A program made the translations under genes and the position numbers. DNA of 40,362 nucleotides from the NCBI GenBank assembly GCA_019347575.1, contig JAHWKY010000038.1, positions 1-40,362 of the forward strand. The letters run 5' to 3'. How positions within the stretch are numbered: the first letter of the stretch is position 1; the number at the start of each line of letters is the position of its first letter. Below the pieces are notes generated by a model. It did no database searches and was not told where the DNA came from. It worked only from the letters and a program-made list of their open reading frames with translations. This document shows, piece after piece, positions 5,488 through 40,362 of the stretch. Source of the DNA: Actinomycetota bacterium (GTDB lineage Bacteria > Actinomycetota > Nitriliruptoria > Nitriliruptorales > Nitriliruptoraceae).

Positions 5488-5489
5488 CC

Positions 5490-10488: not shown

Positions 10489-10498
10489 CCGAGGCGAT

Positions 10499-10531: not shown

Positions 10532-10568
10532 CCCCACGGCCGATGACGTAGAGACGAGGAACGTAACC

Positions 10569-14507: not shown

Positions 14508-14512
14508 CGGAC

Positions 14513-15709: not shown

Positions 15710-15716
15710 GCGGTCG

Positions 15717-16670: not shown

Positions 16671-16695
16671 CGCCCGTCTCCCGAGAGCTATCTCT

Positions 16696-16701: not shown

Positions 16702-16730
16702 CATAGTCCCCTACTTGGTGGAGGTGCGGG

Positions 16731-17498: not shown

Positions 17499-17652
17499 AC
17501 GAGGATCGTCTCAGCTAAGCCCGCGACGAACATCACCGACCGCGGCCTTGGCGTTGCTATCGGTCACTGGCGATGCGTCCGAACGCACGGCAGCCGTCGG
17601 TACTGAGCGAGGAATGCACGGAAGCTGGTGTTCCCAGGAGTTGGCGGGCCGC
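17499..17652. other. Intergenic leader of the glycan operon
   Basis: This gap separates the catabolic locus from the 13-gene operon and must hold or transmit the operon's promoter. I see a weak TTGGCG (17548-17553) without a matching -10, and a small stem TGCGT-CCGA-ACGCA around 17574-17588. Two ribosome-site-like sequences (GAGG near 17608-17611; AGGAG at 17636-17640) precede candidate ATGs at 17614 and 17653. No convincing promoter is visible, which may mean an alternative sigma factor. Confidence 0.4.
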
Positions 17653-24888: not shown

Positions 24889-25660
24889 TCCCATCATCGT
24901 GCTCGGGGCGCCGCGCTCGGGCACGACGTATCTGAGAGCGGTCCTGAACTCGCATCCCGACGTGTTCGTCTCGCACGAAACCCGAGTTTTCGTCTGGGCC
25001 CACCAGGCCCTGCGGGTGCTGCCCGAGGACCGCCAGGCGCTGCTGACGCATCGGGACCGTTTCGTCGATCACATCTCGGGAGTCGTCCGCGAGGCCATCC
25101 GCGACTTCTATTCCGGTCTGGCGCCGAAGGTGACCTATTGGGGCGACAAGAACCCGCACTACGCATCCCCGCGTCACCGCGGGTGTCTCGAAACCATCCA
25201 GGCGCTGTTCCCGGGCGCCAAGTTCCTTCACATCTACCGCGACGGCCGTGACGTCGTGACGTCGCTCATGCGCCGAGGATGGGCGGACTTCGAGGGTTCG
25301 CATCGCACCTGGGAGGGCCATGTGCGCGTCGCACGCGAGTTCGGAACCGTAGTGGGCGACGGTTCCTACTTCGAAGTGCGCTACGAGCAGTTCATCGCCG
25401 ACGACGAGGGGGTGGCTGGCCAGTTGTTCGAGTTCCTGGGCATCCCGATGCACCCGGCGACGCAGCAGTTCTGCCGCGACCAGACCCGGTCCCGTACGCC
25501 GCTGAGCGCGCCCACCACCGACGTTACGACGCTGGAGACGGCTGCGCCCAACGCGGCCTGGAACACGATGTTCGAAAGTGTCGCCGAGCGCGAACGCAGC
25601 CTGAGCCTGCTGGGTCCGACCTTGACAGAGTTGGGGTACCCGGTGCCCGAGAGGGGATGA
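24869..25660 (+). CDS. PAPS-dependent sulfotransferase
   Basis: A 263-residue sulfotransferase. The 5'-phosphosulfate loop is PIIVLGAPRSGTTYLRAVL near residues 8-26 and the 3'-phosphate motif IYRDGRDVVTSLM lies near residue 121; WGDKNPHY is also typical of bacterial carbohydrate/Stf-type enzymes. It should transfer sulfate from PAPS to a sugar or lipid hydroxyl in the cytoplasm. ATG 24869 has AGGAGG at 24858-24863, unusually strong inside the operon, and lies 20 bases before the previous stop. No PAPS synthesis genes (cysD/N/C) are present in the window, so the donor comes from general metabolism. Confidence 0.88.
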   Translation: MPTRTPDPIIVLGAPRSGTTYLRAVLNSHPDVFVSHETRVFVWAHQALRVLPEDRQALLTHRDRFVDHISGVVREAIRDFYSGLAPKVTYWGDKNPHYASPRHRGCLETIQALFPGAKFLHIYRDGRDVVTSLMRRGWADFEGSHRTWEGHVRVAREFGTVVGDGSYFEVRYEQFIADDEGVAGQLFEFLGIPMHPATQQFCRDQTRSRTPLSAPTTDVTTLETAAPNAAWNTMFESVAERERSLSLLGPTLTELGYPVPERG

Positions 25661-28600
25661 CCGTGCACCCTGCCGACTACGACCGGTTGATCAGTCGACT
25701 CCGCGAGCGCGCGGCCAACCACGTGCCGACCGACGACGATGTCCTGGTGGTCTCCAAGGGCGATGACGAGCTCCTGACCGTCGTCCCCGGACAGGGCGGG
25801 CGGCACTTTCCCTGCCGCGATGACGGTCACTACTCGGGCTTCCCACCCGGCGACAGCGTCTCGGCCATCGCGCAACTGGAAGCCGCCCGAAGCCTAGGGG
25901 CGCAGTGGTTGCTCGTTCCTGGCAGTTCACTGTGGTGGCGAGACTATTACGAGGACTTCTGGGGGTACCTGCGCTGCTACTACCAGGTGTGCGTCGAGGA
26001 CGACGATTGCGCACTGTTCGACCTGCGCGCCACCGGCACGCAGGACGACGTCGCAGCGGCCTTGCGAACGGTTCTCACCGAGGCACAGCCCGGCGAGGAT
26101 CTCGCGATCCTGACGTGGGGGGTGGACGATCCCCGTCAGTTCGACCACTTGAGGCGAGTACCGGTGTTCAGTCCATCGGTGGCGAAGGGGCCGTTGCCGT
26201 ACGCGGATGCCAGCATCGCGTTGGTCGCCGTGGGATCCGATGACCCGGGGATGGTCGCCGAGGCGCGACGTGTCGCGTCGATCGCAGCGGTGTCGCTCCG
26301 CCACGGCCGGTGGGTCCCTCACTGGACCCGGCAACGCTCGCGGACCCTACAGACCGAGAGTGTCAGCATCATCGTGCCGTGCTACGACGGATGGCAACTG
26401 ACCTCCGCGTGTCTGCGGTCGGTGTTCGAGACCGTGCCACCCACCCTTGCGGTGGAGGTGGTCGTCGTCGACGACGCGTCCTCCGACGAGACGTTCGAGC
26501 AGCTCGAAGCCTGGGCCAGCAGAGAGCCCCGGCTGCGAGTGGTGCGCAACGTCCGCAACCTGGGATTCATCCATACTTGCAACCGCGGAGCCGAACATGC
26601 GACGGGGCGTTTCCTGATCTTCCTCAACAACGACACGGTGTGTACCCATGGTTGGCTAGAGCCACTCGTGGAGACGCTGCGCGATCGTCCCGACGCGGGT
26701 GCCGTTGGGGCCAAGCTGGTCTACCCCGACGGGCGCCTCCAGGAGGCGGGCGGCGTCATCTTCCGCGACGGATCGGGAGCGAACTTCGGCAAGCACGACC
26801 AGCATCCCGGTTTCGAGCTCTACAGCTACCTGCGCGAGGTCGACTACTGCTCGGGAGCCGCGCTGGCCACGCCAGCGGCGCTGTTCCGCGAACTGGGCGG
26901 GTTCGATCGTACGTTCGCGCCCGCGTACTACGAGGACACCGACTACTGCTTCTCCGTCCGGAAAGCCGGATACCGGATCTTCACCCAGCCGGCCAGCGTG
27001 GTGATCCACCGCGAGGGTGCGACGTCGGGAACCAGCCCCGAGCACGGGGTCAAGCGTCACCAGCAGGTCAACCGCGAGCGATTCGTCGACAAGTGGCAGA
27101 CCGTTCTGCCGGAGTGCCATGCCAACCCGGGGGCCTTCGACCGTGCAACGTGGCACCGGCTCGCACGCCCCACAGGCCAAGGCCGACAGGTTCGGCGCGC
27201 ACTGGTCTGCGTCCCGACGCTGCCGTCCGCCGACCGCGAGAGTGGATCGAAGCGCCTGCACGACATGGTCGACGTCCTGCTGGCCGAAGGTTGGGACGTG
27301 ACACTGGTTGCCAAGGACCGGGGACCTGACGACCGTCGGATCCTCGACGCGATGTGGCGACGGGGCGTGGCTGCGTACGTCGAGCCCCGCGGCGAACTTG
27401 AACAGATCGTGCGCGACGGAGCCTTCGACGTCGCGGTACTGGCGTTCTGGTTCATCGGCGAGCTGTGGGGGTCGCTGATCCGTGAGTGCTCGCCCGACAC
27501 CCGGGTCGTGATCGACACGATCGATCTGCATTTCCTGCGCGAGTCACGTCGCCTGTTCGCAGGGGCTCGTCGACTCGAGTCCACGGTCCTGGACCGCACG
27601 CAGGCGGAACTCATGGCGCGCGAACTCAACGTGTACGCCTCCGCCGACGCGGTGTTGACCGTGTCGGACAAGGAGGCCCAGGTCGTCAACGATCTCGTGG
27701 GCGACAGCGGGCTGGCGCATACCGTTCATGACAACGAGGACGTCGGCCACGCCCACGTCGGACTTTCTTCTCGCCGTGGGCTGCTGTTCGTCGGCAACTT
27801 CCGTCATGCTCCGAACGTGGCAGCCGCCCGGTTCCTCCTGAGTGAGATCGTCCCGCTGCTGCCGGACGGCTTCCTGGAATCACACCCGCTCAGCGTCGTC
27901 GGCAACGCGCTGGAGGAGACCGACCTCGCCACGTTGTGCGATCGGGCGAACGTCCACATGGTTGGGTGGGTGCCCTCGGTGCTGCCGTACCTGGCCGCCA
28001 ACCGGATGTCGGTCGTGCCGCTGACCTATGGAGCCGGGACGAAGCGCAAGCTGGTGCAATCCATGATCGCTGGGACACCCGTGATCTCCACCAGCGTGGG
28101 TATCGAAGGCCTTCCCGTCCGTGACGGTGCGCATCTTCTCGTCGCCGACGAACCGGCGGACTTCGCGGCGCGGGTCGTCGATCTGGCCGCAGACGACGCC
28201 CTCTGGCGACGGCTTTCTCGCAACGGCAGGCGCCGAGTGCTCGCTTCGCATGGCCGCGGAGGCGCCCGAGAGCAACTTGCGGCCGCGCTCGACGCGATCT
28301 CGACGCGAGCGCCGAAACGGGCTCACCTCTTCGACGCCACACTACGCATCTACCGCAGCGATCTCCACCGCGACTACGTGCACTACGAGGAACAACTCAA
28401 CGAGACCCGGGCCGCCATCGAAACCCACGTGCCGCCGGGCGCGGTCGTCAGCGTCATAAGCAAGGGCGATCCGCGGTGGCTGCGGCTGGGGCCGCGCACC
28501 GGTTGGCACTTTCCTCGGACCGAGACCGGCGTGTACGCAGGACACCATCCGGCCGACTCGGCCGAGGCGATCGCCCATCTGGAGCACCAGATGCGATGCG

Positions 28601-28788
28601 GCGCCACGCACCTGGTCATCCCGGGCGTCAGCTTGTGGTGGCTCGAATACTACGACGAGTTCTACGCCTACCTGGGCGCCTGTTCTGACCGGGTGCTACC
28701 GATCGACACCACCTGCGTGATCTTCGAACTGCACGCGTCGCGACCCCGCGTCGCCGCCTCGGTGGAGAACGCCCATGCTGTGCAATGA
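25657..28788 (+). CDS. Giant glycosyltransferase: HHPADS domain + GT2 + GT4-like + HHPADS domain
   Basis: A 1043-residue protein, the largest of the window. Residues about 20-130 are a first 'SKGD...HFPC...YSGFPPGDSVSAIAQLE...WWRDYYEDFWGYL' domain; about 233-500 a GT2 domain (VSIIVPCYDGWQLTSACL, VVDDASSDET, NVRNLGFIHTCNRG, FLNNDTV, YYEDTDYCFSVRKAGY); about 514-900 a GT-B/GT4-type transferase (VCVPTLPSADRESGSKRLHD, then PLTYGAGTKRKLVQSMIAGT and GIEGLPVRDGAHLLV); about 925-1040 a second copy of the small domain (SKGDPRWLRLGPR, GVYAGHHPADSAEAIAHLE, WWLEYYDEFYAYL). ATG 25657 overlaps the sulfotransferase stop. Two unlike transferases flanked by the same accessory domain suggest a processive or scaffold role in assembling a repeating glycan; sugar specificities are unknown. 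Confidence 0.8.
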   Translation: MTVHPADYDRLISRLRERAANHVPTDDDVLVVSKGDDELLTVVPGQGGRHFPCRDDGHYSGFPPGDSVSAIAQLEAARSLGAQWLLVPGSSLWWRDYYEDFWGYLRCYYQVCVEDDDCALFDLRATGTQDDVAAALRTVLTEAQPGEDLAILTWGVDDPRQFDHLRRVPVFSPSVAKGPLPYADASIALVAVGSDDPGMVAEARRVASIAAVSLRHGRWVPHWTRQRSRTLQTESVSIIVPCYDGWQLTSACLRSVFETVPPTLAVEVVVVDDASSDETFEQLEAWASREPRLRVVRNVRNLGFIHTCNRGAEHATGRFLIFLNNDTVCTHGWLEPLVETLRDRPDAGAVGAKLVYPDGRLQEAGGVIFRDGSGANFGKHDQHPGFELYSYLREVDYCSGAALATPAALFRELGGFDRTFAPAYYEDTDYCFSVRKAGYRIFTQPASVVIHREGATSGTSPEHGVKRHQQVNRERFVDKWQTVLPECHANPGAFDRATWHRLARPTGQGRQVRRALVCVPTLPSADRESGSKRLHDMVDVLLAEGWDVTLVAKDRGPDDRRILDAMWRRGVAAYVEPRGELEQIVRDGAFDVAVLAFWFIGELWGSLIRECSPDTRVVIDTIDLHFLRESRRLFAGARRLESTVLDRTQAELMARELNVYASADAVLTVSDKEAQVVNDLVGDSGLAHTVHDNEDVGHAHVGLSSRRGLLFVGNFRHAPNVAAARFLLSEIVPLLPDGFLESHPLSVVGNALEETDLATLCDRANVHMVGWVPSVLPYLAANRMSVVPLTYGAGTKRKLVQSMIAGTPVISTSVGIEGLPVRDGAHLLVADEPADFAARVVDLAADDALWRRLSRNGRRRVLASHGRGGAREQLAAALDAISTRAPKRAHLFDATLRIYRSDLHRDYVHYEEQLNETRAAIETHVPPGAVVSVISKGDPRWLRLGPRTGWHFPRTETGVYAGHHPADSAEAIAHLEHQMRCGATHLVIPGVSLWWLEYYDEFYAYLGACSDRVLPIDTTCVIFELHASRPRVAASVENAHAVQ

Positions 28789-29827
28789 CGCTCTGCTGTT
28801 CGTGCACGTCCCGAAGACCGGCGGCATGTCGCTGACCAGGTTCTTGCTGGAGACGCTACCGGGACCCGTTCACTACTTCCATCCGGACCACGACGCGGAC
28901 CTCGACGCAACGCACGTCATCCAGCATGCAGGGATCCGCCATGAGTCGCTGAGCGAGGCAGCGGCCGCACTGGGTAGCGACCTAGGCCGGCGACTCGAGG
29001 ACTTCGAGGTCATCCTGGCCGTGGTGCGCAACCCCTACGCACTGGAGGTCTCGCGGTTCGCGTACCTCCAGAAGGGGCACCCGTGGGATCGGGGCTACAA
29101 CCAGACGCTCGCGATGGAGGACAACTTCGAGACCTTCGCCGTGCGAAGCCGCGACCACGCGGGAAAGCCCATCGGGGAGTACCTCGCGATCGCTGGACAG
29201 ACCCCGCCCAACCTGTACGTCTCGCGGGCCGAGACCCTGGACCAAGACGTGTCAAGGGTGTTGTCGAGCATCGGCGTGGACGCCGAGGTCAACCTCCCGG
29301 TCGTCAACACGTCACACCACGACCCCTACACGTCGTACTACACGCCCACCGCCGAGAAGGCGGTCTACGAGCGATACCGCGTTCTGTTCGAGCGTGGCTT
29401 CTACCAGCGCATGGGCGTCACCGAGATGCAGCCCACGCGGTACGGGCACCGAGTGCCGATGGTCGGCCCGGTTCAACAAGTCGGTCCGTCATCGGGCCTG
29501 TACCCCGACCTGTGGGCGACCTCGCCGCTGTACTTCAGCGTGCGGCCAGACCAGGCCGTTACGGCGCTGCGCGTCTCCGGGTGGCGCCCGGCCCGCCGCA
29601 CGCAGCCGGCGGAGTTGGAACTGCTGGTCGATGAACGTCCCCTGGCAAAGCTCCCGGGCACGACCGGCAAGTTCAAGTGGGAGGTACCTCTGACCCTCGA
29701 CGTCGATCAGCCTGCACGGTGCGAGATCAGGACGTCGCCGCTGTGGTCGCCCGCCGACGAGGCTCAACGCGCCGACCACCGGCGACTGGCGTTTCGACTG
29801 TCGTCAGTGGCGTTCGACCCCCGGTGA
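28775..29827 (+). CDS. Sulfotransferase-family protein with C-terminal beta domain
   Basis: A 350-residue protein. The N-terminal 210 residues resemble the Sulfotransfer_2 (carbohydrate sulfotransferase) family: FVHVPKTGGMSLTRFLLE as the 5'-PAPS loop near residues 9-26 and AVVRNPYALEVSRFAYL as the 3'-phosphate loop near residue 84. Residues about 215-350 form a strand-rich unit (LYFSVRPDQAVTALRVSGW, ELLVDERPLAKLPG) that looks like a carbohydrate-binding beta-sandwich. It is unrelated in motif detail to the sulfotransferase at 24869, so two different positions or sugars may be sulfated. ATG 28775 overlaps the previous stop by 14 bases. Activity on an alternative acceptor cannot be excluded. 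Confidence 0.75.
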   Translation: MLCNDALLFVHVPKTGGMSLTRFLLETLPGPVHYFHPDHDADLDATHVIQHAGIRHESLSEAAAALGSDLGRRLEDFEVILAVVRNPYALEVSRFAYLQKGHPWDRGYNQTLAMEDNFETFAVRSRDHAGKPIGEYLAIAGQTPPNLYVSRAETLDQDVSRVLSSIGVDAEVNLPVVNTSHHDPYTSYYTPTAEKAVYERYRVLFERGFYQRMGVTEMQPTRYGHRVPMVGPVQQVGPSSGLYPDLWATSPLYFSVRPDQAVTALRVSGWRPARRTQPAELELLVDERPLAKLPGTTGKFKWEVPLTLDVDQPARCEIRTSPLWSPADEAQRADHRRLAFRLSSVAFDPR

Positions 29828-30933
29828 AGCACAGCCCCGGCACCGCACGAACGTCGCGGCTCAGCCTGTTGGCCGCAGCCGCCCTTGCCCTGCTGGGAAC
29901 ATGGCCGACGATCGGTGCCGACGAGCCACCTGCACCGCCGACGCTGGGCCAGGGCGCGACCGACCGGCGCCACGCACCCCCTGGCGATCCGCTCGTCGGC
30001 GCCAACTACACCCATCTGCGATTCGACGACTGCGACTTCTCAGGGCGCCCACTCCTACGCGACTACCATCATCGCGGCGTGCGTGCAACTGCCCGGAGGC
30101 AGCTGGCCACGATGCAGGCCGACGGCATGGACACGCTCCGCCTGCTCATCTGGCACATGGATCGGCCCAGACGCCACCACGACTGGGGCGTGCTGGATTC
30201 CCGAGGCGGCACGTTGACCACGCAGGCGGCGGACAATCTGCGTGCCCTGCTCGAGGACGTACGTCGCGCCGGCTACCGTCGGCTGACGGTCGCCTTCGGC
30301 CCGCAATGGGCGAACCACCCGTCCCATCCGAGCTTCGACCCGACGCTGTATGAACAGAACTGGCAGTTCATCCGCCAGGTGCGAGCCCTGGCCGTGGCAC
30401 ACGGGCCGGCAGTGGTCCGCTTCGACCTGCTGAACGAGGGGGCGCCGTCCAGAACCCTGCCGGCCGAGCGCTACGCACACACCGAGGAGTACCTACAGCG
30501 GCTGTGGGCTTCGTACGTCAGCGACTACGGAACCGCCGATGCGACGGTCTCAGCGATCGCCGACGATCGACCTGACGGACACAGTCGGTTGCGCAACCTT
30601 GTCGAGATCCTCGCGGCGGACGGAGCCCCCGCCCCGCGGTTCTTGGACGTCCACGTCAACGGCGGGCCGGCCCATGCCACGGTGGGGTTGCGCGAAGCGC
30701 GCGCCCTGCTGGAGGATCACGACCTCGACGTCGAGCTGATCCTGGGCGAAACGCCCTACGACCACGCCGATACGGCGGCCGCCATCTCCGAGGCCGACGG
30801 CGACGTTTCGGAGGTGGTCCAGTGGTACTCGACGCCTGAGGACCGCTGCAACGTCTCGCCGCCCTACGGGACGCACGCGTACCGTGCAGCACTGCAGACC
30901 CCTGCGAGTACGACATCGGCAGCTCGATCATGA
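29824..30933 (+). CDS. Secreted GH5/clan GH-A-like glycoside hydrolase
   Basis: A 369-residue protein with an export signal (Lys/Arg-containing start, then LSLLAAAALALLGTWPTIGA, likely cleaved near residue 32). The mature part is a TIM barrel of the cellulase/clan GH-A type: GMDTLRLLIWHMDRP, RLTVAFGPQW, RFDLLNEGAPS with a putative acid/base Glu205, LDVHVN, and ELILGETPYD with a putative nucleophile Glu309. No carbohydrate-binding module or membrane anchor is seen. It is embedded in the glycan operon (GTG overlapping the preceding stop, ATGA overlap with the next), so it likely cleaves or remodels the exported polymer, for example to set chain length. Substrate unknown. Confidence 0.75.
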   Translation: MKHSPGTARTSRLSLLAAAALALLGTWPTIGADEPPAPPTLGQGATDRRHAPPGDPLVGANYTHLRFDDCDFSGRPLLRDYHHRGVRATARRQLATMQADGMDTLRLLIWHMDRPRRHHDWGVLDSRGGTLTTQAADNLRALLEDVRRAGYRRLTVAFGPQWANHPSHPSFDPTLYEQNWQFIRQVRALAVAHGPAVVRFDLLNEGAPSRTLPAERYAHTEEYLQRLWASYVSDYGTADATVSAIADDRPDGHSRLRNLVEILAADGAPAPRFLDVHVNGGPAHATVGLREARALLEDHDLDVELILGETPYDHADTAAAISEADGDVSEVVQWYSTPEDRCNVSPPYGTHAYRAALQTPASTTSAARS

Positions 30934-32060
30934 GGCCCAGCATCCTGCTCGGCGGCGCACTGGCGTCGCGACCCGGCGTCGGCGGGCACGCATGGGTGTT
31001 GCTGCACTACCTGCTCGGCTTCCGGGCACTTGGCTGGAGAGTGACGCTCGTCGATCGTCTCGACCGTGCGGCGTTGCCTGCGGCACTCGATCCGACCGTC
31101 GCCCATCGCGAGCTGCGCGGGGTCTTGCGGCGATTCGATCTCGTCAACGACTACGTGTGCCTCACCGACGAAGGCACGACCGGACCCGCCGCAGCCGGAC
31201 TGGACTCCACGCTCTCGGGGAGCCTGCTGATCGACGTCATGGGGTTCATCGGCGACCACCCGCTGCGCGATCGCGCCTCGTACCGCGTGTTCCTGGACAT
31301 CGACCCCGGTTTCCCGCAGCTCTGGCGTGAGCTCGGGCACGCCGATGTCCTCGACGGCTACGACGCGTACGTCACCGTCGGAACCGCCATCGGCCGTCTC
31401 GACTGCGAGATACCCCGGTGTGGCTTGGACTGGATTCCCACGCTCCCCCCGGTTGTCCTGGACCACTGGCCCGAATCTCCGTCCCCGGCAAGAACCTTCA
31501 CGTCCGTGGCCGCCTGGCGCGGGCCGTTCGGCCCCATCGACCAGGGCGGGCGCAGGCTTGGTCTGCGGGTCCACGAGTTCCGGCGCTTCCTAGCACTGCC
31601 GACGAGAACCCACGCCGACTTCGAACTCGCCTTGGACATCCACCCCGACGAAACCATCGACCTGGAGCGACTCGCCGCGCAGGGATGGAGGTTGGTGGAC
31701 CCTGCCAAGGTCGCGGCCACGCCCGATGATTACCAGACCTTCGTGCGCTCCTCGGGAGCGGAGTTCATGGTTGCCAAGAACCTCTACGTCGACACGCGGG
31801 GTGGCTGGTTCAGCGACCGCAGCGCGTGCTACCTCGCCAGCGGCAAGCCCGTGCTCTTCCAGGACACCGGCCTGGCGGGCTCCCTGCCCGACGGCTTGGG
31901 CCTGTTGCTGTACGCCGACCTCGACTCGGCTGTCGCCGGCGTCCATGAGATCCTGGCCAACTACGAGGGGCACGCGCGTGCAGCGCGCGCGCTGGCCATC
32001 GAACACCTCGACGCGCGCCGGGTGTTGACCACCCTGCTGGACCGGCTGGGTATCACATGA
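30930..32060 (+). CDS. GT-B-like glycosyltransferase, paralog 2
   Basis: A 376-residue member of a four-copy paralogous family in this operon (others: N-terminal half of the 22402 protein, 32611, 33765). Shared blocks are an N-terminal HAWVLLHYLLGFRALGWRVT followed by VDRLDR, a central VFLDIDPGFPQLW and TLPPVVLDHWP, and a C-terminal GGWFSDRSACYLASGKPV with QDTGL and LPDGLGLLLY, ending in EHLDARRVLTTLLDRL. The last blocks resemble the nucleotide-sugar-binding half of GT-B glycosyltransferases, though no textbook ExxxxxxxE motif is plain. ATG 30930 overlaps the hydrolase stop. I infer a sugar transferase; the exact reaction is not recognisable. Confidence 0.65.
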   Translation: MRPSILLGGALASRPGVGGHAWVLLHYLLGFRALGWRVTLVDRLDRAALPAALDPTVAHRELRGVLRRFDLVNDYVCLTDEGTTGPAAAGLDSTLSGSLLIDVMGFIGDHPLRDRASYRVFLDIDPGFPQLWRELGHADVLDGYDAYVTVGTAIGRLDCEIPRCGLDWIPTLPPVVLDHWPESPSPARTFTSVAAWRGPFGPIDQGGRRLGLRVHEFRRFLALPTRTHADFELALDIHPDETIDLERLAAQGWRLVDPAKVAATPDDYQTFVRSSGAEFMVAKNLYVDTRGGWFSDRSACYLASGKPVLFQDTGLAGSLPDGLGLLLYADLDSAVAGVHEILANYEGHARAARALAIEHLDARRVLTTLLDRLGIT

Positions 32061-32614
32061 CGGTCACTTCAGACGCCGCGATACGCCGGCTGAACTGGGG
32101 TTGCGGCGACCACGTCCGGACGGGATGGGTCAACTCCGACCTCAAGTCCGGGACCCATATCGATGTCACCACCGACGTGCGCGACGGACTGCCATTCGAG
32201 GACGCCGAGTTCGACTACATCGTCAGCGTCCACGCCCTTCAGATGCTGTCGTATCCCGAGATCGTGCCCGCCCTGGTCGAGTTGCGTCGGGTCCTGCGCC
32301 CCGAGGGTGTCCTGCGGTTGTGCCTACCTGACCTCGAGAAAGGCATCGACGCCTACCGCGCGGGCAACGCCGACCACTTCCAGGTGCCCGATGAGGAACT
32401 GCGCAGCCTCGGCGGCAAGTTCATCGTGCACATGCTGTGGTACGGCTGGAGCGTGACTCTGTTCACGCTGGACTTCATCGGCGAGCTCCTGGACCGCGCC
32501 GGGTTCCGGGACGTCAGCCCGTGCGGCTACCAACGATCCCCCAGCGGGTTGGAGGGCATCACCGACCTCGACAACCGGCCACATGAGAGCCTCTTCGTGG
32601 AGGCCACCCGGTGA
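32057..32614 (+). CDS. SAM-dependent methyltransferase
   Basis: A 185-residue class I methyltransferase. Motif I is LNWGCGDHVRTGWVNSDL near residue 12, motif II-like FDYIVSVHALQML lies near residue 52, and LRRVLRPEGVLRLCLPDLEK is the characteristic post-motif strand/turn of the predicted SAM-methyltransferase group found in surface-polysaccharide clusters. The fold is compact, with no membrane segment. It is sandwiched by 4-base overlaps between two paralogous glycosyltransferase genes, so O-methylation of a sugar is the simplest reading. Substrate is not determinable. Confidence 0.8.
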   Translation: MTVTSDAAIRRLNWGCGDHVRTGWVNSDLKSGTHIDVTTDVRDGLPFEDAEFDYIVSVHALQMLSYPEIVPALVELRRVLRPEGVLRLCLPDLEKGIDAYRAGNADHFQVPDEELRSLGGKFIVHMLWYGWSVTLFTLDFIGELLDRAGFRDVSPCGYQRSPSGLEGITDLDNRPHESLFVEATR

Positions 32615-33768
32615 CGACCGTTGCGGTGGCCGGAGCGCTCGCCAACAAGCCGCTCAACGCCGGAGAGGCTTGGGTACGGCTGAGCTGGATCAGAGGCCTG
32701 CAGTCGCTGGGTTTCGATGTGGTCTTCGTGGAAGAGATCGATCGGGCGACCTGCGTCTCCGTCCACGGCACGCCCTGCGCCCCGCACGATTCGGTCAACG
32801 TCGCCTACTGGCGGCAGGTCATCGAGAGCTTCGATCTGGGGGAGCGTGCAGCGCTGCTGGACACCGACGGTCGCTCGCTCGCCGGTGTCCGCCGCGCAGA
32901 CCTCGACGAGTTGCTAGACGGCGCGGCGCTGCTGTGCAACATCTCGGGTCATCTCCGCGTCCGCGAGCTCCGGGCAGCATTCGGCGTCTCGGTTTTCGTG
33001 GACCTGGATCCTGGATTCACGCAGTTCTGGGCTGCTCAGGGCGCCGACGTCAACCTGGACGGTCACGACCTGTACTACACCGTCGGGATCAACATCGGCG
33101 CCTCGACCTGCGACGTGCCTGCCGCTGGCGTCCACTGGCGTTCGCTGCCCCCGTTCTTCGTACCCGACGACTGGCCGCGATCCAACGCCGCCACGGACAG
33201 TCCGATCACGACGGTCGCAACCTGGCGCAGCTATGGTCGCGTCAGCGTGGGAAGCCGCACGTTCACGCTCAAGGCCCACCAGTTCCGTCGGTTCGTGCAG
33301 CTGCCCCAGCGGGTGGACGCGCGCTTTGAGATCGCGCTCGACATCCACCATGGCGACCACCGCGACCGTGAGCTTCTCGAGCGGCACGGCTGGAGGCTGC
33401 GCGACCCGCGCGCCGTCGTCCGCGACCCCGACGCGTTCCGACGCTACGTCCGTCATTCCTCCGCCGAGTTCTCCGTCGCGCAGGGCATCTACGTGGAGAC
33501 GTGCACGGGCTGGCTCGGCGACCGAACCGTCCGGTACCTGGCCAGCGGACGCCCGGCGATCGTGCAGGACACCGGCCTCGGTGCCCACCTGCCCACGGGC
33601 ACCGGACTGCTGACGTTCTCCACCCTCGAACAGGCCATCGCCGGCATCGAGGACCTCGCTGCCGCGCCCGAGCGCCACGCCGCGGCCGCCCGCCGGCTCG
33701 CCGATGAGTACCTCGACGCCCGGCGTGTGCTGGGGCGGGTCCTCGAGGACACAGGGACCGCGCCATGA
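32611..33768 (+). CDS. GT-B-like glycosyltransferase, paralog 3
   Basis: A 385-residue paralog of the 30930 and 33765 proteins. It has NAGEAWVRLSWIRGLQSLGF then VVFVEEIDRA at the N terminus, VFVDLDPGFTQFW in the middle, TVGINIGASTCDVP, and SLPPFFVPDDWP. Its C-terminal block is the most divergent copy: GWLGDRTVRYLASGRPA, against GWFSDRS in the others, followed by QDTGLGAHLPTGTGLLTF and EYLDARRVLGRVLED. The change at the FSDRS site may mean a different donor sugar or loss of activity. GTG 32611 overlaps the methyltransferase stop. Confidence 0.65.
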   Translation: MTTVAVAGALANKPLNAGEAWVRLSWIRGLQSLGFDVVFVEEIDRATCVSVHGTPCAPHDSVNVAYWRQVIESFDLGERAALLDTDGRSLAGVRRADLDELLDGAALLCNISGHLRVRELRAAFGVSVFVDLDPGFTQFWAAQGADVNLDGHDLYYTVGINIGASTCDVPAAGVHWRSLPPFFVPDDWPRSNAATDSPITTVATWRSYGRVSVGSRTFTLKAHQFRRFVQLPQRVDARFEIALDIHHGDHRDRELLERHGWRLRDPRAVVRDPDAFRRYVRHSSAEFSVAQGIYVETCTGWLGDRTVRYLASGRPAIVQDTGLGAHLPTGTGLLTFSTLEQAIAGIEDLAAAPERHAAAARRLADEYLDARRVLGRVLEDTGTAP

Positions 33769-34940
33769 AGCGCCCACAACGCCGCGCACGGCCAGACCGT
33801 CTGCGTATCGTGGTCGCGGGCAGCGTGGCGGCCGCTCCCGCCCAGGCCGGCGCTGCCTGGGCGGTCCTGCAGTACGTGCTCGGCCTGCGCCAGCTCGGGC
33901 ACGACGTGCTGTTGGTGGAGCCCATCGAGCGCGCTGACGACGCGGCTGTGCTCGACCGCACCCCGGTGGCACGGTTCTTTCGCGACGTCGTCAGGGACGC
34001 CGACGTCGCGGACCGTGCCGCACTGCTGGACGTGCGGTCCGGTGACACGGTGGGGATGTCCTGGCCGCAGCTGCGCAAGTTGGGCGCCGCAGCGGACGTA
34101 CTGCTGAACCTGTCCGGGATCCTTCGCCACCCTGCCCTACTTGAGCCCATCCCCCGACGGGTTTTCGTGGACCTCGACCCGGGCTTCGTCCAGCTCTGGC
34201 ACGCCCAAGGCATCGACATGGGCCTCGACGCCCACACGCACTTCGCGACGGTCGGGACGAACCTGGGTGCCCCTGACTGCCCGATCCCGACACTCGATCG
34301 AACCTGGCAGGCGACACTGCCGCCGGTGGTCCTCGACGAGTGGCCGTGCCGGCCAGCTCCCCACGCCAGCGCCGCCCCGGTCACAACCATCGGCAACTGG
34401 CGCAGCTACGGCTCAATCGACAACGACGGGACGCCCTACGGACAGCGGTGCCACTCGTTTCGTGCGCTGCTGCCCGTGGCCGCCCGCGCCCCCCGACCGA
34501 TCCGCCTCGCATTGACCATCCACCCCGGGGACGCGACCGATCTCGCCGCGCTCGAGTCCAACGGATGGAGGCTCGACGACCCACGGCAGGTCGCCGGCAC
34601 GCTTGCCGGCTACCGCAGCTACATCCAGGGGTCACATGCCGAGCTGTGCGTGGCCAAGAGCGGCTACGTCATCTCCCGCAGCGGGTGGTTCAGCGACCGC
34701 AGCGCCTGCTACTTGGCCTCGGGCCGACCCGTGGTTGCACAGGACACCGGTTTCGGTGCCCTACTGCCGTCGGGGCAGGGACTGCTGGTGTACACCGACG
34801 TCGACAGCGCAGTGGGGGCCCTCCACGAAACCGAGCGAGCGCACGCTGCCCACTGCCGTGCCGCACGCGAGATCGCAGCAACGTACCTCGATTCGCGGCG
34901 CGTGCTCGGTCGCCTCCTGGACGCGGTGGGCGAAGGATGA
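33765..34940 (+). CDS. GT-B-like glycosyltransferase, paralog 4
   Basis: A 391-residue paralog following directly on paralog 3 (4-base overlap). N terminus: AGAAWAVLQYVLGLRQLGHD then VLLVEPIERA; centre: VFVDLDPGFVQLWHAQGIDM, TVGTNLGAPDCPIP, TLPPVVLDEWP; C-terminal: SGWFSDRSACYLASGRPV, QDTGFGALLPSGQGLLVY and TYLDSRRVLGRLLD. The basic first 15 residues (KRPQRRARPDRLR) are an extension absent from paralog 2. A 20-base DNA stretch coding for WFSDRSA is identical here, in paralog 2 and in the 22402 gene, consistent with duplication. Probable sugar transferase; acceptor unknown. Confidence 0.65.
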   Translation: MKRPQRRARPDRLRIVVAGSVAAAPAQAGAAWAVLQYVLGLRQLGHDVLLVEPIERADDAAVLDRTPVARFFRDVVRDADVADRAALLDVRSGDTVGMSWPQLRKLGAAADVLLNLSGILRHPALLEPIPRRVFVDLDPGFVQLWHAQGIDMGLDAHTHFATVGTNLGAPDCPIPTLDRTWQATLPPVVLDEWPCRPAPHASAAPVTTIGNWRSYGSIDNDGTPYGQRCHSFRALLPVAARAPRPIRLALTIHPGDATDLAALESNGWRLDDPRQVAGTLAGYRSYIQGSHAELCVAKSGYVISRSGWFSDRSACYLASGRPVVAQDTGFGALLPSGQGLLVYTDVDSAVGALHETERAHAAHCRAAREIAATYLDSRRVLGRLLDAVGEG

Positions 34941-35872
34941 CCGCAGCGACGATCGCGACGCAGGAACTCCGGGCCGTTCTCGAGGCTGCCCTCCAGACGC
35001 CGATCCGCACCCTGCGGCGTCGCCCGTACCGGTATGCCACCAGCCACGCGCTGGAGGAGTTCGAGCTGGAAACCGCGGGCGGCGCAGTTCTCGAACTTCT
35101 GTTCAAGGACTTCGCGCGTTCGCCGGCGACCGGAAGCCAGCGCTCCGCCAAGCCAGCGCACGTCTACGACCCACTGCGCGAACTCCTCGTCTACCAGCAG
35201 GTGCTCGACGCCGCAGACACCGGGGCGCCACGTCTCTTTGCTGCCGTCGCCGATACGCACCGGCGCTGGCTTTTCATCGAGAAGATCCATGGCACCGAAC
35301 TGTGGCAGGTAGGCGAACTGTCGGTGTGGATGGAGGTGGCGCGCTGGCTCGCGCGGTTCCATGGCCAACACCGCCTGCTCCACCTGGCAGCCGACGTTCC
35401 CCTGGTGCGCTACGGAAGCGAACAGCTCGCCATCTGGCGCGAGCGTCTGCTAGCTGCGATGGGGGCGAGTGTACGGCCGCTGATGGAAGCGTTCGACGTC
35501 GCAACCGCGATGATCACGGAGGCACCGGCGACCTTCCTCCATGGCGAGTTCTACCCATCGAACGTGCTCATCGCGGACGGGGGACGCGTGCGTCCGGTCG
35601 ACTGGGAGATGGCGGCGATCGGTCCGGGCGCGTTGGACCTCGCGGCGCTGCTGTCCGGATGGGGGCACGACGAACAGGCGGCATTGATAGTGGCCTACCG
35701 ACAGGGCGACGGCTCGGGGCTCGACGACGACACCTTCGAACGGTTGCTGGCAGCTTGCCGTCTGCAGCAGGCCGCTCAATGGCTGGCCTGGTCGCCGCAC
35801 TGGCAGCCGCCGCCCGAACACGTCCAGGACTGGCTCGCGGTGGTGCAGGATCAGGCCGAGCGGCTGCGATGA
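34937..35872 (+). CDS. APH-fold phosphotransferase with HGE catalytic loop
   Basis: A 311-residue protein of the aminoglycoside phosphotransferase/choline-kinase fold. The N lobe contains VLELLFKDFARSP, the C lobe TFLHGEFYPSNVLIADGG and RPVDWEMAAIGPGALDLAAL. In classical APH enzymes the loop is HGDxxxxN, with Asp as catalytic base; here Glu204 occupies that place (HGEFYPSN), while the Asn and the metal-binding Asp of VDWE remain. It may still phosphorylate a sugar, amino alcohol or lipid head group, or bind nucleotide without catalysis. ATG 34937 overlaps the paralog 4 stop, the TGA overlaps the deacetylase start. In a glycan operon a kinase may prepare a sugar 1-phosphate; drug resistance is unlikely by context. 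Confidence 0.75.
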   Translation: MTAATIATQELRAVLEAALQTPIRTLRRRPYRYATSHALEEFELETAGGAVLELLFKDFARSPATGSQRSAKPAHVYDPLRELLVYQQVLDAADTGAPRLFAAVADTHRRWLFIEKIHGTELWQVGELSVWMEVARWLARFHGQHRLLHLAADVPLVRYGSEQLAIWRERLLAAMGASVRPLMEAFDVATAMITEAPATFLHGEFYPSNVLIADGGRVRPVDWEMAAIGPGALDLAALLSGWGHDEQAALIVAYRQGDGSGLDDDTFERLLAACRLQQAAQWLAWSPHWQPPPEHVQDWLAVVQDQAERLR

Positions 35873-36630
35873 TGCCCCCCGATGGAGCGACGTCGCGACG
35901 GCGTCTGATCGTGAACGCCGACGACTTCGGGCAGAGCTCCGGGATCACCGAGGGCGTCCTTGATGCGCATCGGCACGGCATCGTGACAAGCGCGAGCCTG
36001 ATGGTGCGCTTCCCGGGGGCGGCCGAGGCTGCGGCGCGGGGTGTGGCCGCTGGCCTGGACTTGGGGCTGCACGCCGACCTGGGCGAATTCGTGTTCGACG
36101 GCCGGGGATGGGTGGCGATATACGAGGTCGTCGGCACGGACGACGAGCCCGCCGTCCGTGCCGAGCTCGAGCGCCAGCTCGAGACGTTCCTCGACCTGGT
36201 ATGCCGGCCACCGACACACCTGGATTCCCACCAGCACGCGCACCGGAGCGATCCTGTACGGGGCGTGATGTTGGAGATGGCAGCCCGTCTCGACGTTCCG
36301 CTGCGAGGCGAGGGGCCGGTCCGATACGAGGGTGGGTTCTACGGTCAGGACGCCCGCGGCTCCAGCTACCCGGAATTGATCGATCCATCCGCCCTGTTGC
36401 GACTGATCGAGCAGCTGCCAGCCGGCGTGACCGAACTCGGGTGCCACCCCGGCCGCCGCGACGACGAACTGGCCTCGCCTTACCGGAGTGAACGGTCAGA
36501 CGAACTCTCTGCGCTGTGCGACCGGCGCGTCCGCGAGGCGCTCGATCGTCAGGGTGTCCTGCTCACGACCTTCGCCGCCGAAGCCGTCCGAGGTCAGCGG
36601 GACACCGAAGGTCGCGGCTCCCAGCGCTGA
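35869..36630 (+). CDS. YdjC/ChbG-type carbohydrate deacetylase
   Basis: A 253-residue protein of the YdjC (ChbG/HpnK-like) family of metal-dependent sugar deacetylases. Visible motifs: LIVNADDFGQSSGITEGV with the metal-binding Asp pair, GLHADLGE, THLDSHQHAHRSDPV with the metal His, and TELGCHPGRRDDEL near the C terminus. The family removes N- or O-acetyl groups from chito-oligosaccharides or related lipid-linked sugars. ATG 35869 overlaps the kinase stop; a second ATG at 35872 is directly adjacent. It closes the 13-gene operon and adds deacetylation to the sulfation and methylation steps. No signal peptide, so it acts in the cytoplasm. Confidence 0.85.
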   Translation: MMPPDGATSRRRLIVNADDFGQSSGITEGVLDAHRHGIVTSASLMVRFPGAAEAAARGVAAGLDLGLHADLGEFVFDGRGWVAIYEVVGTDDEPAVRAELERQLETFLDLVCRPPTHLDSHQHAHRSDPVRGVMLEMAARLDVPLRGEGPVRYEGGFYGQDARGSSYPELIDPSALLRLIEQLPAGVTELGCHPGRRDDELASPYRSERSDELSALCDRRVREALDRQGVLLTTFAAEAVRGQRDTEGRGSQR

Positions 36631-36736: not shown

Positions 36737-37159
36737 GTGACGGTCCCGGTGTCCTACCGATTGGACGAGGGCCTCAAGCGCCGTCTCTCGGAGCAGGCGG
36801 CTGTGGAGGGGGTGACCGAGACGGGGCTGGTGGCACGCATCCTCGATGAGGCGCTCAAGGTCGCGGCGCACCCCGGCATCGTCTACCGCGACGGACCCAC
36901 GGGGCGGCGGGCCGCGCTCGCGGCTGGTCCCGACGTGTGGGAGGTCATCAACGGTGTCCGTCACGCGCGTGGCCGCGGCGAGAAGCGGATCGGCAACGCT
37001 GCTGAGCAGATGGGCCTGCCCGAGCGACTCGTGCGGCTGGCGGTCAACTTCGCGGCTGCCTACCCCGACGAGATCGAGGAGCGCATCGCCATGAACGCGG
37101 CGGCCGCTGAGAGGGCGCGGGCGTTGGCAGAGGAGCGGGAGCGTCTGCTGGCGTCGTGA
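36737..37159 (+). CDS. Antitoxin-like protein: ribbon-helix-helix N terminus, DUF433-like C terminus
   Basis: A 140-residue protein. Residues about 1-40 (VPVSYRLDEGLKRRLSEQAA then TETGLVARILDEALK) read like a ribbon-helix-helix DNA-binding unit. Residues about 47-115 start with HPGIVYRDG and continue with DVWEVINGVRHARG, MGLPERLVRLAVNFAAAYPDEIEERI, the layout of DUF433 antitoxins (PGI..G.., IxxV, L...V..A..YY..HPEEI). It ends in a charged helix. GTG 36737 has AAGGA 9-13 bases upstream. Its TGA overlaps the GTG of the next gene, which encodes a DUF5615-like PIN-fold protein, the usual partner of DUF433, so the pair looks like a toxin-antitoxin module. Confidence 0.7.
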   Translation: MTVPVSYRLDEGLKRRLSEQAAVEGVTETGLVARILDEALKVAAHPGIVYRDGPTGRRAALAAGPDVWEVINGVRHARGRGEKRIGNAAEQMGLPERLVRLAVNFAAAYPDEIEERIAMNAAAAERARALAEERERLLAS

Positions 37160-37467
37160 GGTTCCTCATCGACGAGATGTTCGCTGCGGACGTCGCCGAT
37201 CAGCTGCGTGATGTCGGTCACGACCCGGTTCACGTTTCAGAGGTTGGGCTGGGAGCAGGCGCCGACGGCGACGTGCTGGGATTCGCGGCCACCGAGGGTC
37301 GGGTCGTCGTCACGGAGAATGCCGCCGACTTCCTCCCGCTGCTCGACGCGCAGATCGCAGCGGGGGTCGCGGTCGCGCCGGTCGTCATCGTGCTGAAGGG
37401 GAAGCTCCCGCGCCGCTCGGGGGGCGATGAGCCACGCCCGCGTAGTCAAGCTCGACGCCTGGGCTGA
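37156..37467 (+). CDS. DUF5615-like PIN-fold toxin, C terminus displaced by a frame break
   Basis: A 103-residue protein beginning RFLIDEMFAADVADQLRDVG, then DGDVLGFAATEGRVVVTENAADFLPLL and APVVIVLKGKLP, the order of the small PIN-like DUF5615 family (acidic residues in LIDEM and TENAADF as the putative metal site). It starts at GTG 37156, overlapping the antitoxin stop. The last 15 residues after LPRRSG are Arg/Pro-rich and unlike a protein end, whereas the +1 frame directly after the G6 run (37419-37424) gives a sensible C terminus ending at 37510. The gene is therefore either frameshifted, read by slippage at G6, or affected by a sequencing error. Confidence 0.65.
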   Translation: MRFLIDEMFAADVADQLRDVGHDPVHVSEVGLGAGADGDVLGFAATEGRVVVTENAADFLPLLDAQIAAGVAVAPVVIVLKGKLPRRSGGDEPRPRSQARRLG

Positions 37468-37510
37468 GCGATGGACTGATCCCTACCACTACGTCCACTG
37501 GCTGACGTGA
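37427..37510 (+). pseudogene. Out-of-frame C terminus of the PIN-like toxin
   Basis: In the frame one base ahead of the toxin ORF this stretch reads MSHARVVKLDAWAERW then TDPYHYVHWLT and stops at TGA 37508-37510. Removing one G from the G6 run at 37419-37424 joins it smoothly to LKGKLPRRSG of the toxin, giving about 117 residues. The Trp-rich ending resembles what I recall of related DUF5615 proteins, but no alignment was possible. It also ends one base before the tRNA-derived segment. Confidence 0.55.
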
Positions 37511-37550
37511 GCGACGACGCCAATATCGCGAGTGCGTTGTCCGAGCCCTC

Positions 37551-37597
37551 CCTTGCCAAGGTGGGGGTCGCGGGTTCGAATCCCGTCGTCCGCTCCA
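37551..37597 (+). repeat. 3' part of tRNA-Gly(GCC), likely attachment-site copy
   Basis: Bases 37551-37597 match the 3' portion of a tRNA-Gly: anticodon loop TTGCCAA (anticodon GCC), 3' anticodon stem GGTGG, variable region, T-arm GCGGG-TTCGAAT-CCCGT, acceptor strand CGTCCGC, discriminator T and encoded CCA. The matching 5' acceptor strand GCGGACG and a normal D-arm are not found upstream; 37511-37550 is only faintly tRNA-like. A gene cut in this way is what integrases of the tyrosine family leave at the far end of an island inserted in a tRNA 3' end. A decayed tRNA pseudogene is the alternative. Confidence 0.7.
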
Positions 37598-37603
37598 CAC
37601 GAT

Positions 37604-37623
37604 CCCGGCGTGAGATCGCCGGG
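37604..37623 (+). terminator. Hairpin after the tRNA fragment
   Basis: CCCGGCG and CGCCGGG form a perfect 7-base GC stem around the loop TGAGAT, seven bases after the CCA of the tRNA fragment. It is followed by TTCC, without a long T-tract. Probably the original terminator of the tRNA gene, carried along with its 3' end. Confidence 0.5.
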
Positions 37624-37724
37624 TTCCGCCGTTCCTGCCCCGTTGGCTGCACATGCCCTCCAATCGGCACGTCCGGAAGGCAGCGGCGGCGAGGGCGGTC
37701 TGGCGTCATCTACTGCCCTGGGGC

Positions 37725-37745
37725 TGTGTGAATCCTGTGTGAATC
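37725..37745 (+). repeat. Tandem 10-bp direct repeat TGTGTGAATC, 11-base period
   Basis: TGTGTGAATC occurs at 37725-37734 and again at 37736-37745. The 11-base period places both copies on the same face of the helix, as for cooperative protein binding. It lies 128 bases after the tRNA fragment and could be an integrase arm-type or regulatory site. No protein is assigned. Confidence 0.5.
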
Positions 37746-38029
37746 GCAGCGCCGATGCGATCTCGACGGCGGTGTACGGGTACGCCGTCTGCGACACCGA
37801 CCTCTGCGACGCGCCGAACTGGATCGTCGACCAGGCCGCGTGGGAGGCCCTCGGAGGGACGACCGCCGCCCGCACCTTCGTGCGCACCGCCGCCGAGCCG
37901 CAGAACGACGGGACGGCCACGTCGGGCACCGTCAGGGTCTCGCTCGGCGAGCTCGCCGTCGGCGCGGGCCTGGTCCGCATCGTGGGAGCGCTCCTGCCGG
38001 AGCCCACGCAGGCGAACCACCACCCCTAG
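37739..38029 (+). CDS. Hypothetical protein, short
   Basis: A 96-residue open frame from GTG 37739 to TAG 38027-38029 with strong GC bias at third codon positions, which supports real coding. The sequence (for example CDTDLCDAPNWIVDQAAWEA and TVRVSLGELAVGAGLVRIVG) has no motif I recognise and no signal peptide or membrane segment. No good ribosome site precedes the GTG, and the frame is open further upstream into the tRNA-derived segment, so this may be the 3' remnant of a longer gene truncated at the junction. A palindromic hairpin follows directly. Confidence 0.4.
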   Translation: MNRSADAISTAVYGYAVCDTDLCDAPNWIVDQAAWEALGGTTAARTFVRTAAEPQNDGTATSGTVRVSLGELAVGAGLVRIVGALLPEPTQANHHP

Positions 38030-38030
38030 G

Positions 38031-38056
38031 GGGCTCTCCGCGTACGCGGAGACCCC
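38031..38056 (+). terminator. Perfect 18-base palindrome with extended stem
   Basis: TCTCCGCGT and ACGCGGAGA (38035-38052) form a perfect 9+9 palindrome with no loop base; beyond one C-C mismatch, GGG pairs with CCC. It starts one base after the stop of the short ORF. It may be a terminator cruciform or a dimeric protein operator; there is no T-tract. Confidence 0.45.
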
Positions 38057-38155
38057 GGCGGGGTACCGGGTGTTCGAGAACCTCGTGGACTGGCGCCGCC
38101 CGCGGTCGTGACGGCACGAGGACCGCGCACCCCCGCGGCCCGACGCCCCGGCGCC

Positions 38156-38168: not shown

Positions 38169-40362
38169 ATGGGTCGGGGTGGGCTGCCGTTCGTGGGACG
38201 CGAGGCCGAGCTCGCGGTCGCGCTCGACGTCGTGGACCGGGTCGCGGCGGCGACGGGGCAGGCGCTGGTCATCGAGGGCGAGGCCGGGATCGGCAAGACC
38301 CGGATGGTCGACGAGTTGCTGCGTACGGTCCGGCAGCGGGGCTGGCAGCTGGTCCGCGGGGCGGCTCGCCCGTTGGAGACGGAGATGGCGTTCGCGCCGT
38401 GGGTGGACGCACTCGGCCTCCATCCCGACGCCCCGGAGGAGCGCCGTGCCGCGATCGCGCGGCTGATGCTCGGGGACCCGGACAGTCCCGGATCGGCCGG
38501 TCCCGAGATGGGCACGGGCACCTCGCGGCAGGCACAGCTCGTCCAGGCGATCATCGACGTGATCGTCGACCGCTGCGATGCGGGACCGGTGGTGCTGGCC
38601 CTCGAGGACGTCCACTGGATCGACGGTCCCAGCCTCGCCGTGGTCGACCGGCTCGCACGGCGCCTGGCGCACCTCCCGCTGCTGGTGATCCTGAGCGCTC
38701 GCCCGTACCCGCGCAGCCCGGAGCTGCACGGCGTGCTGGACCGTCTGACGACGAGCGGAGCGGGGCACCTGCCGCTCGCTGGACTACCCGACGGGGCCAC
38801 CGCACGGCTCGCCGCCGCCGTCCTGCGGCAGGAGCCGGGACCCACGGTCCTGGCGGCGCTCAACGCCGCCGCGGGCAACCCCCTGTTCGTCGCTGAGCTG
38901 CTCGCCGCCCTGCGCGAGGATGGGGCGTTCGAGCCGCGCGACGGGGTGGTCGAGCTGCACACCGCCCGGTTGCCACCGTCGCTACGACTGACCCTCCTGC
39001 GACGTCTGAGCGTCCTCCCCGAGGACACCGTCGAGCTGCTCCGCCTGGCCGCCGTGCTCGGGACCGCGTTCGCACCCGACGCACTCGCGGTCGTGGCTCG
39101 CCGTCCCGAGGTCGACGTCGTGCGCGATCTGGAACCCGCCCGGCGAGCGGGTCTACTCGACAGTGGCGACCATGGGCTGACGTTCCACCACGACCTCATC
39201 CGTGACGCCGTGTACGAGGACCTGCCTGGGGCCGCGCGCCAGGTCCTGCACGGAGCTGCCGCGCAGGCGCTCGCGGACGCGGGGTACCCGCCGGAGGTCA
39301 CGGCTCCGCACCTGCTCCGTGGAACGCTCGAGGCGGACGAGAGGACGCTGACGGATCTCCGAGCGGTGGCTTCGGCGCTCGGGGTCCGGGCTCCCGATCT
39401 GGCCGTCCAGCTGCTCGAACGTGCCGTCGAGCTGGCGGATCGCGGTAGCCGTGACGAGCTGCGGGTGGAGCTGGCCAGGGCCATGGGGTGGGCGCACCGC
39501 CCCCGCGATGCGGCCGCCTTGGCGGACGAACTGCTGGAGCGCCTGGATCGGGGTCCGCTGCGCCGTACCGCGCTGTTGATCCGGGTCTCGCAGGCGCAGT
39601 TCCTCGGCGGGTTCGAGCGGTACGGCGAGCGGCTCGAGGCCGCCGCGACCGAGCCCGACGCGTCGCCCGGCGAGCGCGCCCGCCTGCTCGCCCTCGCGAC
39701 CGCGGCCTGCGTCGACGGCGGCGACCCGGAACGCGCGGAGGCGGTCGGGAGGCGCGCGACCGACGCAGCCCGGCATGCGGCCGATGATATCGCGCTCTGC
39801 GCGGCGCTGGTCTCGATGGCGGTCGCCGCCCTGGCGTCCATGGACGACGGGCACGGGCGTCACGTCCCGGCCGAGGCCGGCGGCCTCGCCATCAGCCGCG
39901 CGCGCGAGGCCGTCGACGTCGCCCGACGCAGTGACGATCCCGAGCTGCCGCTCGTCGTCGCGCCCGCAGTGACCTTGGCGATGACCCTGGGGACCTTCCC
40001 GCAGCACCGCGGGGAGGCGATCGAGCTCAGCCAGGGCGGACTCGTCGACGCTGAGCAGCGGGGCCTGCCGGCCTTCGCCGCCACGTACCACATGACTCTC
40101 GGCGTGAACCTCTACCGGGCCGGTCGCTGGGACGAGGCGACCACCGAGCTCGAGAGCGCCGTCGAGCGTTGCCTCGAGCTGGACACGACGGGACCGTTGG
40201 TCGACATCTCGTGTCGCCTCGCCCGCATCGCGGTGCGCCGGGACGATCTCGCCGGGGCGGAGCGGTGGATCGCCCGGGCGGAGGCCGCCCAGGGCCCGGC
40301 CCCATCGACCGCGTACGCGGTGTTCGCGGTCCTCGCCCGGGCGACACTGTTGGAGGCGACCG
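38169..40362 (+). CDS. LAL/LuxR-type AAA ATPase transcriptional regulator, 5' part
   Basis: The frame is open from ATG 38169 to the window edge, giving 731 residues so far. It starts LPFVGREAELAVALDVVDRV, then Walker A VIEGEAGIGKTRMVDELL near residues 35-52, Walker B VLALEDVHWIDGPSLAVVD near residue 140, GNPLFVAELLAAL, and FHHDLIRDAVYEDLP, the standard order of the large ATP-binding (LAL) regulators and signal-transduction ATPases. From about residue 390 on it is helical and Ala/Leu/Arg-rich, consistent with TPR-like repeats. Family members are usually 900-1100 residues with a C-terminal LuxR helix-turn-helix or an N-terminal cyclase/kinase; the end is outside the window, so DNA binding is not proven. 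The context (leaderless start, beyond the tRNA junction) suggests core chromosome. Confidence 0.8.
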   Translation, partial: MGRGGLPFVGREAELAVALDVVDRVAAATGQALVIEGEAGIGKTRMVDELLRTVRQRGWQLVRGAARPLETEMAFAPWVDALGLHPDAPEERRAAIARLMLGDPDSPGSAGPEMGTGTSRQAQLVQAIIDVIVDRCDAGPVVLALEDVHWIDGPSLAVVDRLARRLAHLPLLVILSARPYPRSPELHGVLDRLTTSGAGHLPLAGLPDGATARLAAAVLRQEPGPTVLAALNAAAGNPLFVAELLAALREDGAFEPRDGVVELHTARLPPSLRLTLLRRLSVLPEDTVELLRLAAVLGTAFAPDALAVVARRPEVDVVRDLEPARRAGLLDSGDHGLTFHHDLIRDAVYEDLPGAARQVLHGAAAQALADAGYPPEVTAPHLLRGTLEADERTLTDLRAVASALGVRAPDLAVQLLERAVELADRGSRDELRVELARAMGWAHRPRDAAALADELLERLDRGPLRRTALLIRVSQAQFLGGFERYGERLEAAATEPDASPGERARLLALATAACVDGGDPERAEAVGRRATDAARHAADDIALCAALVSMAVAALASMDDGHGRHVPAEAGGLAISRAREAVDVARRSDDPELPLVVAPAVTLAMTLGTFPQHRGEAIELSQGGLVDAEQRGLPAFAATYHMTLGVNLYRAGRWDEATTELESAVERCLELDTTGPLVDISCRLARIAVRRDDLAGAERWIARAEAAQGPAPSTAYAVFAVLARATLLEAT

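Follow-up and report, generated by a model that had tools for sequence, protein, structure and literature searches.

A truncated tRNA-Gly(GCC) copy at the edge of a probable catabolic and glycan island in an uncultured actinobacterial lineage

The window, i.e., the whole stretch of 40,362 nucleotides analysed here, is a complete contig (C38) of a draft genome of Nitriliruptoria (G000; 4.89 Mb in 120 contigs), a bin with an estimated contamination of 4.6%. Near its right end it carries a truncated 3' part of a tRNA-Gly(GCC) gene that, judging from the point where it departs from the tRNA, the anticodon loop, is a recombination junction. The interpretation that we consider likely is that islands targeted by integrases have accreted in tandem at one tRNA-Gly gene, and that the segment present in the window is one of them, without an integrase of its own. 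The location of this island mainly to the left of the copy, including a toxin-antitoxin pair, a glycan operon and a catabolic locus, is well supported. A scar of a tRNA 3' end such as a phage-type integrase leaves is of a well-known kind, found here within a chain of islands stacked at a single tRNA gene. Its presence means that a large catabolic and glycan locus of this uncultured actinobacterial lineage lies on DNA that was probably imported.

The genome contains one intact tRNA-Gly(GCC) gene (C2:20267-20342, minus strand) and three truncated copies, located in the window, at C21:65536-65582 (minus strand) and at C42:20130-20176 (plus strand). The copy in the window corresponds to the last 47 bases of the intact gene and also includes the T-arm and the acceptor strand (Table 1). 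Upstream of 37551 the 5' half of the tRNA is absent, and the end of the toxin gene is found instead, followed by ...CCGAGCCCTC. This agrees with the sequence-only reading, which had described a 47-base 3' part devoid of its 5' half, although it had set the start at 37511, i.e., 40 bases too early. With the flanking bases included, the match has E = 3e-26, which excludes chance. The identity with the C2 gene has a sharp left limit in the anticodon stem-loop, matching the crossover position known for integrases of this type; in the Cluster J mycobacteriophages, a 44-bp core starts in the anticodon loop of tRNA-Leu (PMC3706429). Ten non-tRNA bases to the left of this limit are common to the copies of the window and C42 with a single difference, and both copies share 93% identity over 57 bases, counted from 37541.

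Table 1. Location of the main features of the window
Feature	Position	Strand	Observations
Catabolic part of the island	3..17495	.	MFS C-terminal fragment (3-248), FMN dehydrogenase, branched-chain ABC uptake genes, hydantoinase A/B, CoA transferases, E1/transketolase, SDR
Glycan operon, island cargo	17476..36627	+	Glycosyltransferases, ABC exporter, methyltransferase, APH-like kinase, YdjC deacetylase
Putative antitoxin, right end of the island	36737..37159	+	Weak ribbon-helix-helix (RHH) match
DUF5615 PIN-like putative toxin	37156..37509	+	Annotated frame stops at 37467; homology in another frame to 37509
Left (element-side, P) flank of the core, CCGAGCCCTC	37541..37550	+	Unlike the tRNA; the truncated copy of C42 has CCGAACCCTC; C38/C42 identity from 37541, C38/C2 identity from 37551
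Truncated tRNA-Gly(GCC) 3' part (anticodon stem-loop to CCA), common core of an integrase attachment site	37551..37597	+	47/47 identity to the intact tRNA-Gly of C2; 5' half absent
Right arm block X (P'-like arm)	37598..37781	+	Homologous to the DNA after the intact tRNA of C2 (80%) and after the copy of C21 (75%)
Two perfect 11-bp direct repeats, CTGTGTGAATC, putative integrase arm-type sites	37724..37745	+	Only perfect 11+11 tandem repeat of the window
C-terminal remnant of a large protein, about 85 codons plus a frameshifted tail	37772..38111	+	N-terminal part missing; long-open-frame homologues in the same genome and in relatives, 56-64% identity
AAA ATPase regulator gene	38169..40361	+	Runs off the contig end; right flank with 74.8% G+C

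To the right of the core, the homology of the window with C2 and C21 runs for 170-180 bases, and the end of this arm carries a pair of 11-base repeats that reads CTGTGTGAATC twice in the window and CTGGGGGAATC twice on C2, with a near-perfect pair on C21. The variant within the pair is TGTG/TGTG in the window and GGGG/GGGG on C2, so both units have changed together; this parallel change between sister arms may offer a simple means of pairing islands with integrases. Paired direct repeats of about 10 bp have been described as putative arm-type sites of actinophage integrases (PMC3706429). When 63 distinct tRNA-Gly-like copies having at least 200 bases downstream were inspected, repeats spaced by 11 bases followed nine of them (one being in fact a tRNA-Asp locus on C31); random stretches of these loci would be expected to give 0.58. 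A second integration site of this genome is found on C31 (C31:44743-48225), where a further integrase, with an 11-bp repeat pair of its own (CGTGACCACTC), adjoins a tRNA-Phe/Asp/Lys cluster.

Beyond the arm the window contains a gene that has lost its beginning; a paralogue of this remnant on C53 gives a weak match to zinc carboxypeptidases (M14). The DNA directly to the right of the copy is best read as an element-derived arm followed by a broken gene, and not simply as host DNA. An arm block followed by a truncated gene suggests that elements are stacked at this site, and the right arm would be the residue of another element, the rest of which was lost in a deletion extending into the neighbouring gene.

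Three lines of evidence argue that the island lies to the left of the copy, namely the non-tRNA left flank of the core, a step in G+C content and a transporter gene split between contigs. The G+C content is 68.3% to the left of the copy versus 74.8% to the right, a modest shift, the left part being slightly below the 69.3-71.6% found in 13 sampled stretches of the genome and the right flank measuring only 2.6 kb. On C2 the DNA downstream of the tRNA-Gly gene has 67.2% versus 72.5% upstream, i.e., the intact tRNA points into low-G+C DNA. A tetranucleotide comparison did not discriminate.

Concerning the split gene, base 1 of the window cuts a transporter gene of which 82 residues remain (C38:3-248), and at C21:729 a gene for a transporter of that subfamily is likewise interrupted, with 284 residues left. 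Both pieces align with successive parts of a single homologue in about 18 relatives, at similar identity (about 40%), and the residues missing between them are usually 31-35; the next best match to the C21 piece in the genome is a distant transporter (29%). From this split gene we infer that C21, read in the direction of the tRNA, continues into the window. The segment comprised between the copies of C21 and the window, which have the same orientation, would probably span about 102 kb, to which C21 contributes 64.8 kb and the window 37.5 kb, with some 100 bases missing between the two contigs. According to its translations, C21:1-65 kb is catabolic throughout, encoding acyl-CoA dehydrogenases, CoA ligases and transferases, hydantoinases and two branched-chain uptake sets, like the first 17 kb of the window. 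Part of C21 has a normal G+C content.

A comparison of contig ends revealed no overlap joining the window to C21 or C2. A direct join between C2:1 and C38:1 was discarded, as C2 ends in an alpha/beta-hydrolase gene, C38 starts in a transporter gene and they share no end sequence. C21 runs 728 bases past the cut transporter, where the translations reveal truncated DoxX- and TetR-like genes, and C21:1-728 must be a chimeric contig end or a rearrangement. Around position 729 of this contig the truncated DoxX-like gene and the truncated transporter gene abut in head-to-head orientation.

The proposal that the copy is an attachment-site copy at an island edge, with the element to its left including the toxin-antitoxin pair, the glycan operon and the catabolic locus, gains support from the P-type left flank, the G+C step and the split gene leading to a same-orientation copy on C21. 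The additional proposal that it is the far end, opposite to an intact tRNA, held only in part: a displaced tRNA 3' copy does stand at the boundary, but the nearest opposite boundary found is the truncated copy of C21, probably about 102 kb away, and the intact tRNA is on C2. Similarly, of the intact tRNA-Gly(GCC) followed by an integrase that was to be sought upstream, the intact gene is present in the genome, on C2, but no integrase was found on that contig, which is not joined to the window. The features of an att-bounded island that we observe are the displaced tRNA copy (47/47) and the arm-type direct repeats beside the core (37724-37745). It is on this copy and this arm that assignment to such islands would rest, both links to other boundaries being indirect.

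The 5' side of the C21 copy carries an HTH_17/AlpA-like (excisionase-like) gene and a gene encoding a 428-aa tyrosine integrase, with a related repeat pair between the copy and these genes. This integrase is located on the far side of the C21 copy, outside the 102-kb segment. The window and C21:1-65 kb, which together cover the deduced segment, yielded no integrase, and Pfam and tblastn searches for a hidden integrase remnant in the window and on C2 gave none. With no tyrosine integrase found inside it, the segment differs from a self-mobile integrative element. The Pfam scans, which covered proteins of the window, detected no conjugation or replication genes, transfer (Tra/Rep) genes or phage structural genes.

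The same 47 bases are present in metagenome bins, several of them labelled Nitriliruptorales, Egibacteraceae, Euzebyaceae or Euzebyales. Integrase genes or their remnants adjoin tRNA-Gly or its copies in three relatives (G031, G022 and G016) and at the loci L075 and L088, and tandem copies occur in five (G031:C50, G037:C103, G041:C131, G042:C147 and G019:C103). In addition, the dut side of tRNA-Gly is conserved across the family, while the opposite side is variable. Taken together, the neighbouring integrases, the tandem copies and the single variable side indicate that tRNA-Gly(GCC) is a recurrent integration site in Nitriliruptoria, where the 47-base core and the 11-bp arm repeats provide a search handle for such islands.

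The toxin-antitoxin pair ends about 40 bases before the 47-base core. The only other DUF5615 match of this genome is on C42, and its end lies at a similar distance from the truncated copy of that contig. In the relatives no toxin homologues were found beside tRNA-Gly copies, such a placing occurring only at these two copies of G000; in G031 it is a ParDE pair that precedes a tRNA-Gly copy. The toxin gene shows a one-base frameshift near 37430 when compared with a 66%-identical homologue (G005:C99), possibly real or possibly an assembly error. In Shewanella, the composite island CGI48 was shown to be stabilised by such a pair (PMC8978831).

According to the mechanism that we propose, strand exchange would take place at the anticodon loop, as the sequence boundary and the known tRNA-targeting integrases suggest. 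Each insertion would restore an intact tRNA at one end and leave the 47-base copy at the other, and repeated use of the site would line up islands with tRNA copies between them, in an order that is tentative. One of these segments would extend from the C21 copy through about 65 kb of catabolic genes and the 37.5 kb of the window, ending in the toxin-antitoxin pair, which might help to keep it in the cell. With no integrase found in it, the segment would depend for its movement on a related integrase that acts on its ends, unless it is now fixed. To the right of the copy, the arm left over from another element would have become fused to the broken gene.

Two other explanations have to be weighed against this tandem accretion. 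The element could lie to the right, the fragment and its arm being the P' start of an element that continues past the contig end, with ordinary chromosome on the left. The arm block with its integrase-type repeats is on that side, and several relatives have an integrase on that side of tRNA-Gly or of a copy. However, about 180 bases after the core the right side turns into the truncated gene and the high-G+C regulator, without any integrase, whereas the core is preceded on the left by non-tRNA sequence that a second copy shares, which is what the end of an element should look like, and that side has a catabolic character and a link to C21; we therefore regard an element on the right as improbable. 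Quite unlikely too is that the copy and its arm were left by a small element lost long ago, with no island on either side and with the glycan and catabolic genes as residents. The absence of an integrase from the segment, the frameshifted toxin, the truncated gene on the right and the normal G+C of part of C21 would fit such a history, but a core 47/47 identical to the tRNA and two perfect 11-bp repeats imply a site that is either not old or under selection, and the split gene indirectly links the window to a second copy in the same orientation about 102 kb upstream. A real but degenerate tRNA gene, as in the 97-base tRNA-Asp(GTC) called by ARAGORN at 37501-37597, or a chance match can practically be discarded, because the call is of abnormal length and a false positive (no Rfam family, tRNA included, reaches the threshold anywhere in the window), its 3' part matches tRNA-Gly exactly and C31 has a normal tRNA-Asp(GTC).

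For tandem accretion at the tRNA, the nearest described case appears to be the chain of islands at ssrA of Dehalococcoides, which includes 15 islands without integration modules, possibly mobilizable in cis (PMC3146451). In both cases a single RNA gene is followed by a series of islands, every one of them delimited by a copy of the 3' end of that gene, with a conserved non-matching motif upstream of the copy, and some of them lack integration genes. The Dehalococcoides chain has a tmRNA target, a 20 bp repeat and reductive dehalogenase cargo, whereas the window has tRNA-Gly(GCC), a 47-bp core, arm repeats of the tyrosine-integrase type and acyl-CoA catabolic and glycan cargo. As in the Cluster J mycobacteriophages (PMC3706429) and the AICEs (PMC3218068), the core runs from the anticodon loop of a tRNA and is accompanied by arm-type sites in the form of paired direct repeats of about 10 bp, and a tyrosine integrase stands beside an attachment site, but, unlike these actinobacterial phages and AICEs, the segment of the window has no integrase found and no phage structural genes among its scanned proteins. 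The combination of islands at a tRNA gene together with a toxin-antitoxin pair, which aids maintenance in Shewanella, recalls CGI48 (PMC8978831), although the toxin is here a putative DUF5615 PIN-like protein, possibly frameshifted. Tycheposons, described from Prochlorococcus and Methylophilaceae, are also cargo islands bordered by tRNA genes with a tyrosine recombinase (PMC10872708).

Cassette-like arrays of tandem tRNA-Gly 3' copies, many of them only 1.1-2.5 kb apart, were observed at three loci of the relatives, L158 (G037:C103), L163 (G041:C131) and L057 (G031:C50), with one to three ordinary genes per unit and mostly without integrase. At L158, one tRNA-Gly copy is followed by three arm-like repeats spaced by 11 bp. 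A tentative idea, to which we assign a small chance, is that tRNA-Gly(GCC) of Nitriliruptoria anchors integron-like arrays of short integrase-less units (1-2.5 kb, one or few genes, sometimes a toxin-antitoxin pair), which all end in a tRNA 3' copy, in some cases have their own arm repeats, and are gained and lost through integrases of differing arm specificity, and that large islands like that of the window are built by the same traffic. Concerning the comparison with integrons, the repeats of the window are tRNA 3' ends. Finally, the loci L065 (G034:C220) and L084 share about 120 identical bases exactly at the tRNA-Gly core and arm, as if the assembler had broken at a repeated attachment site.
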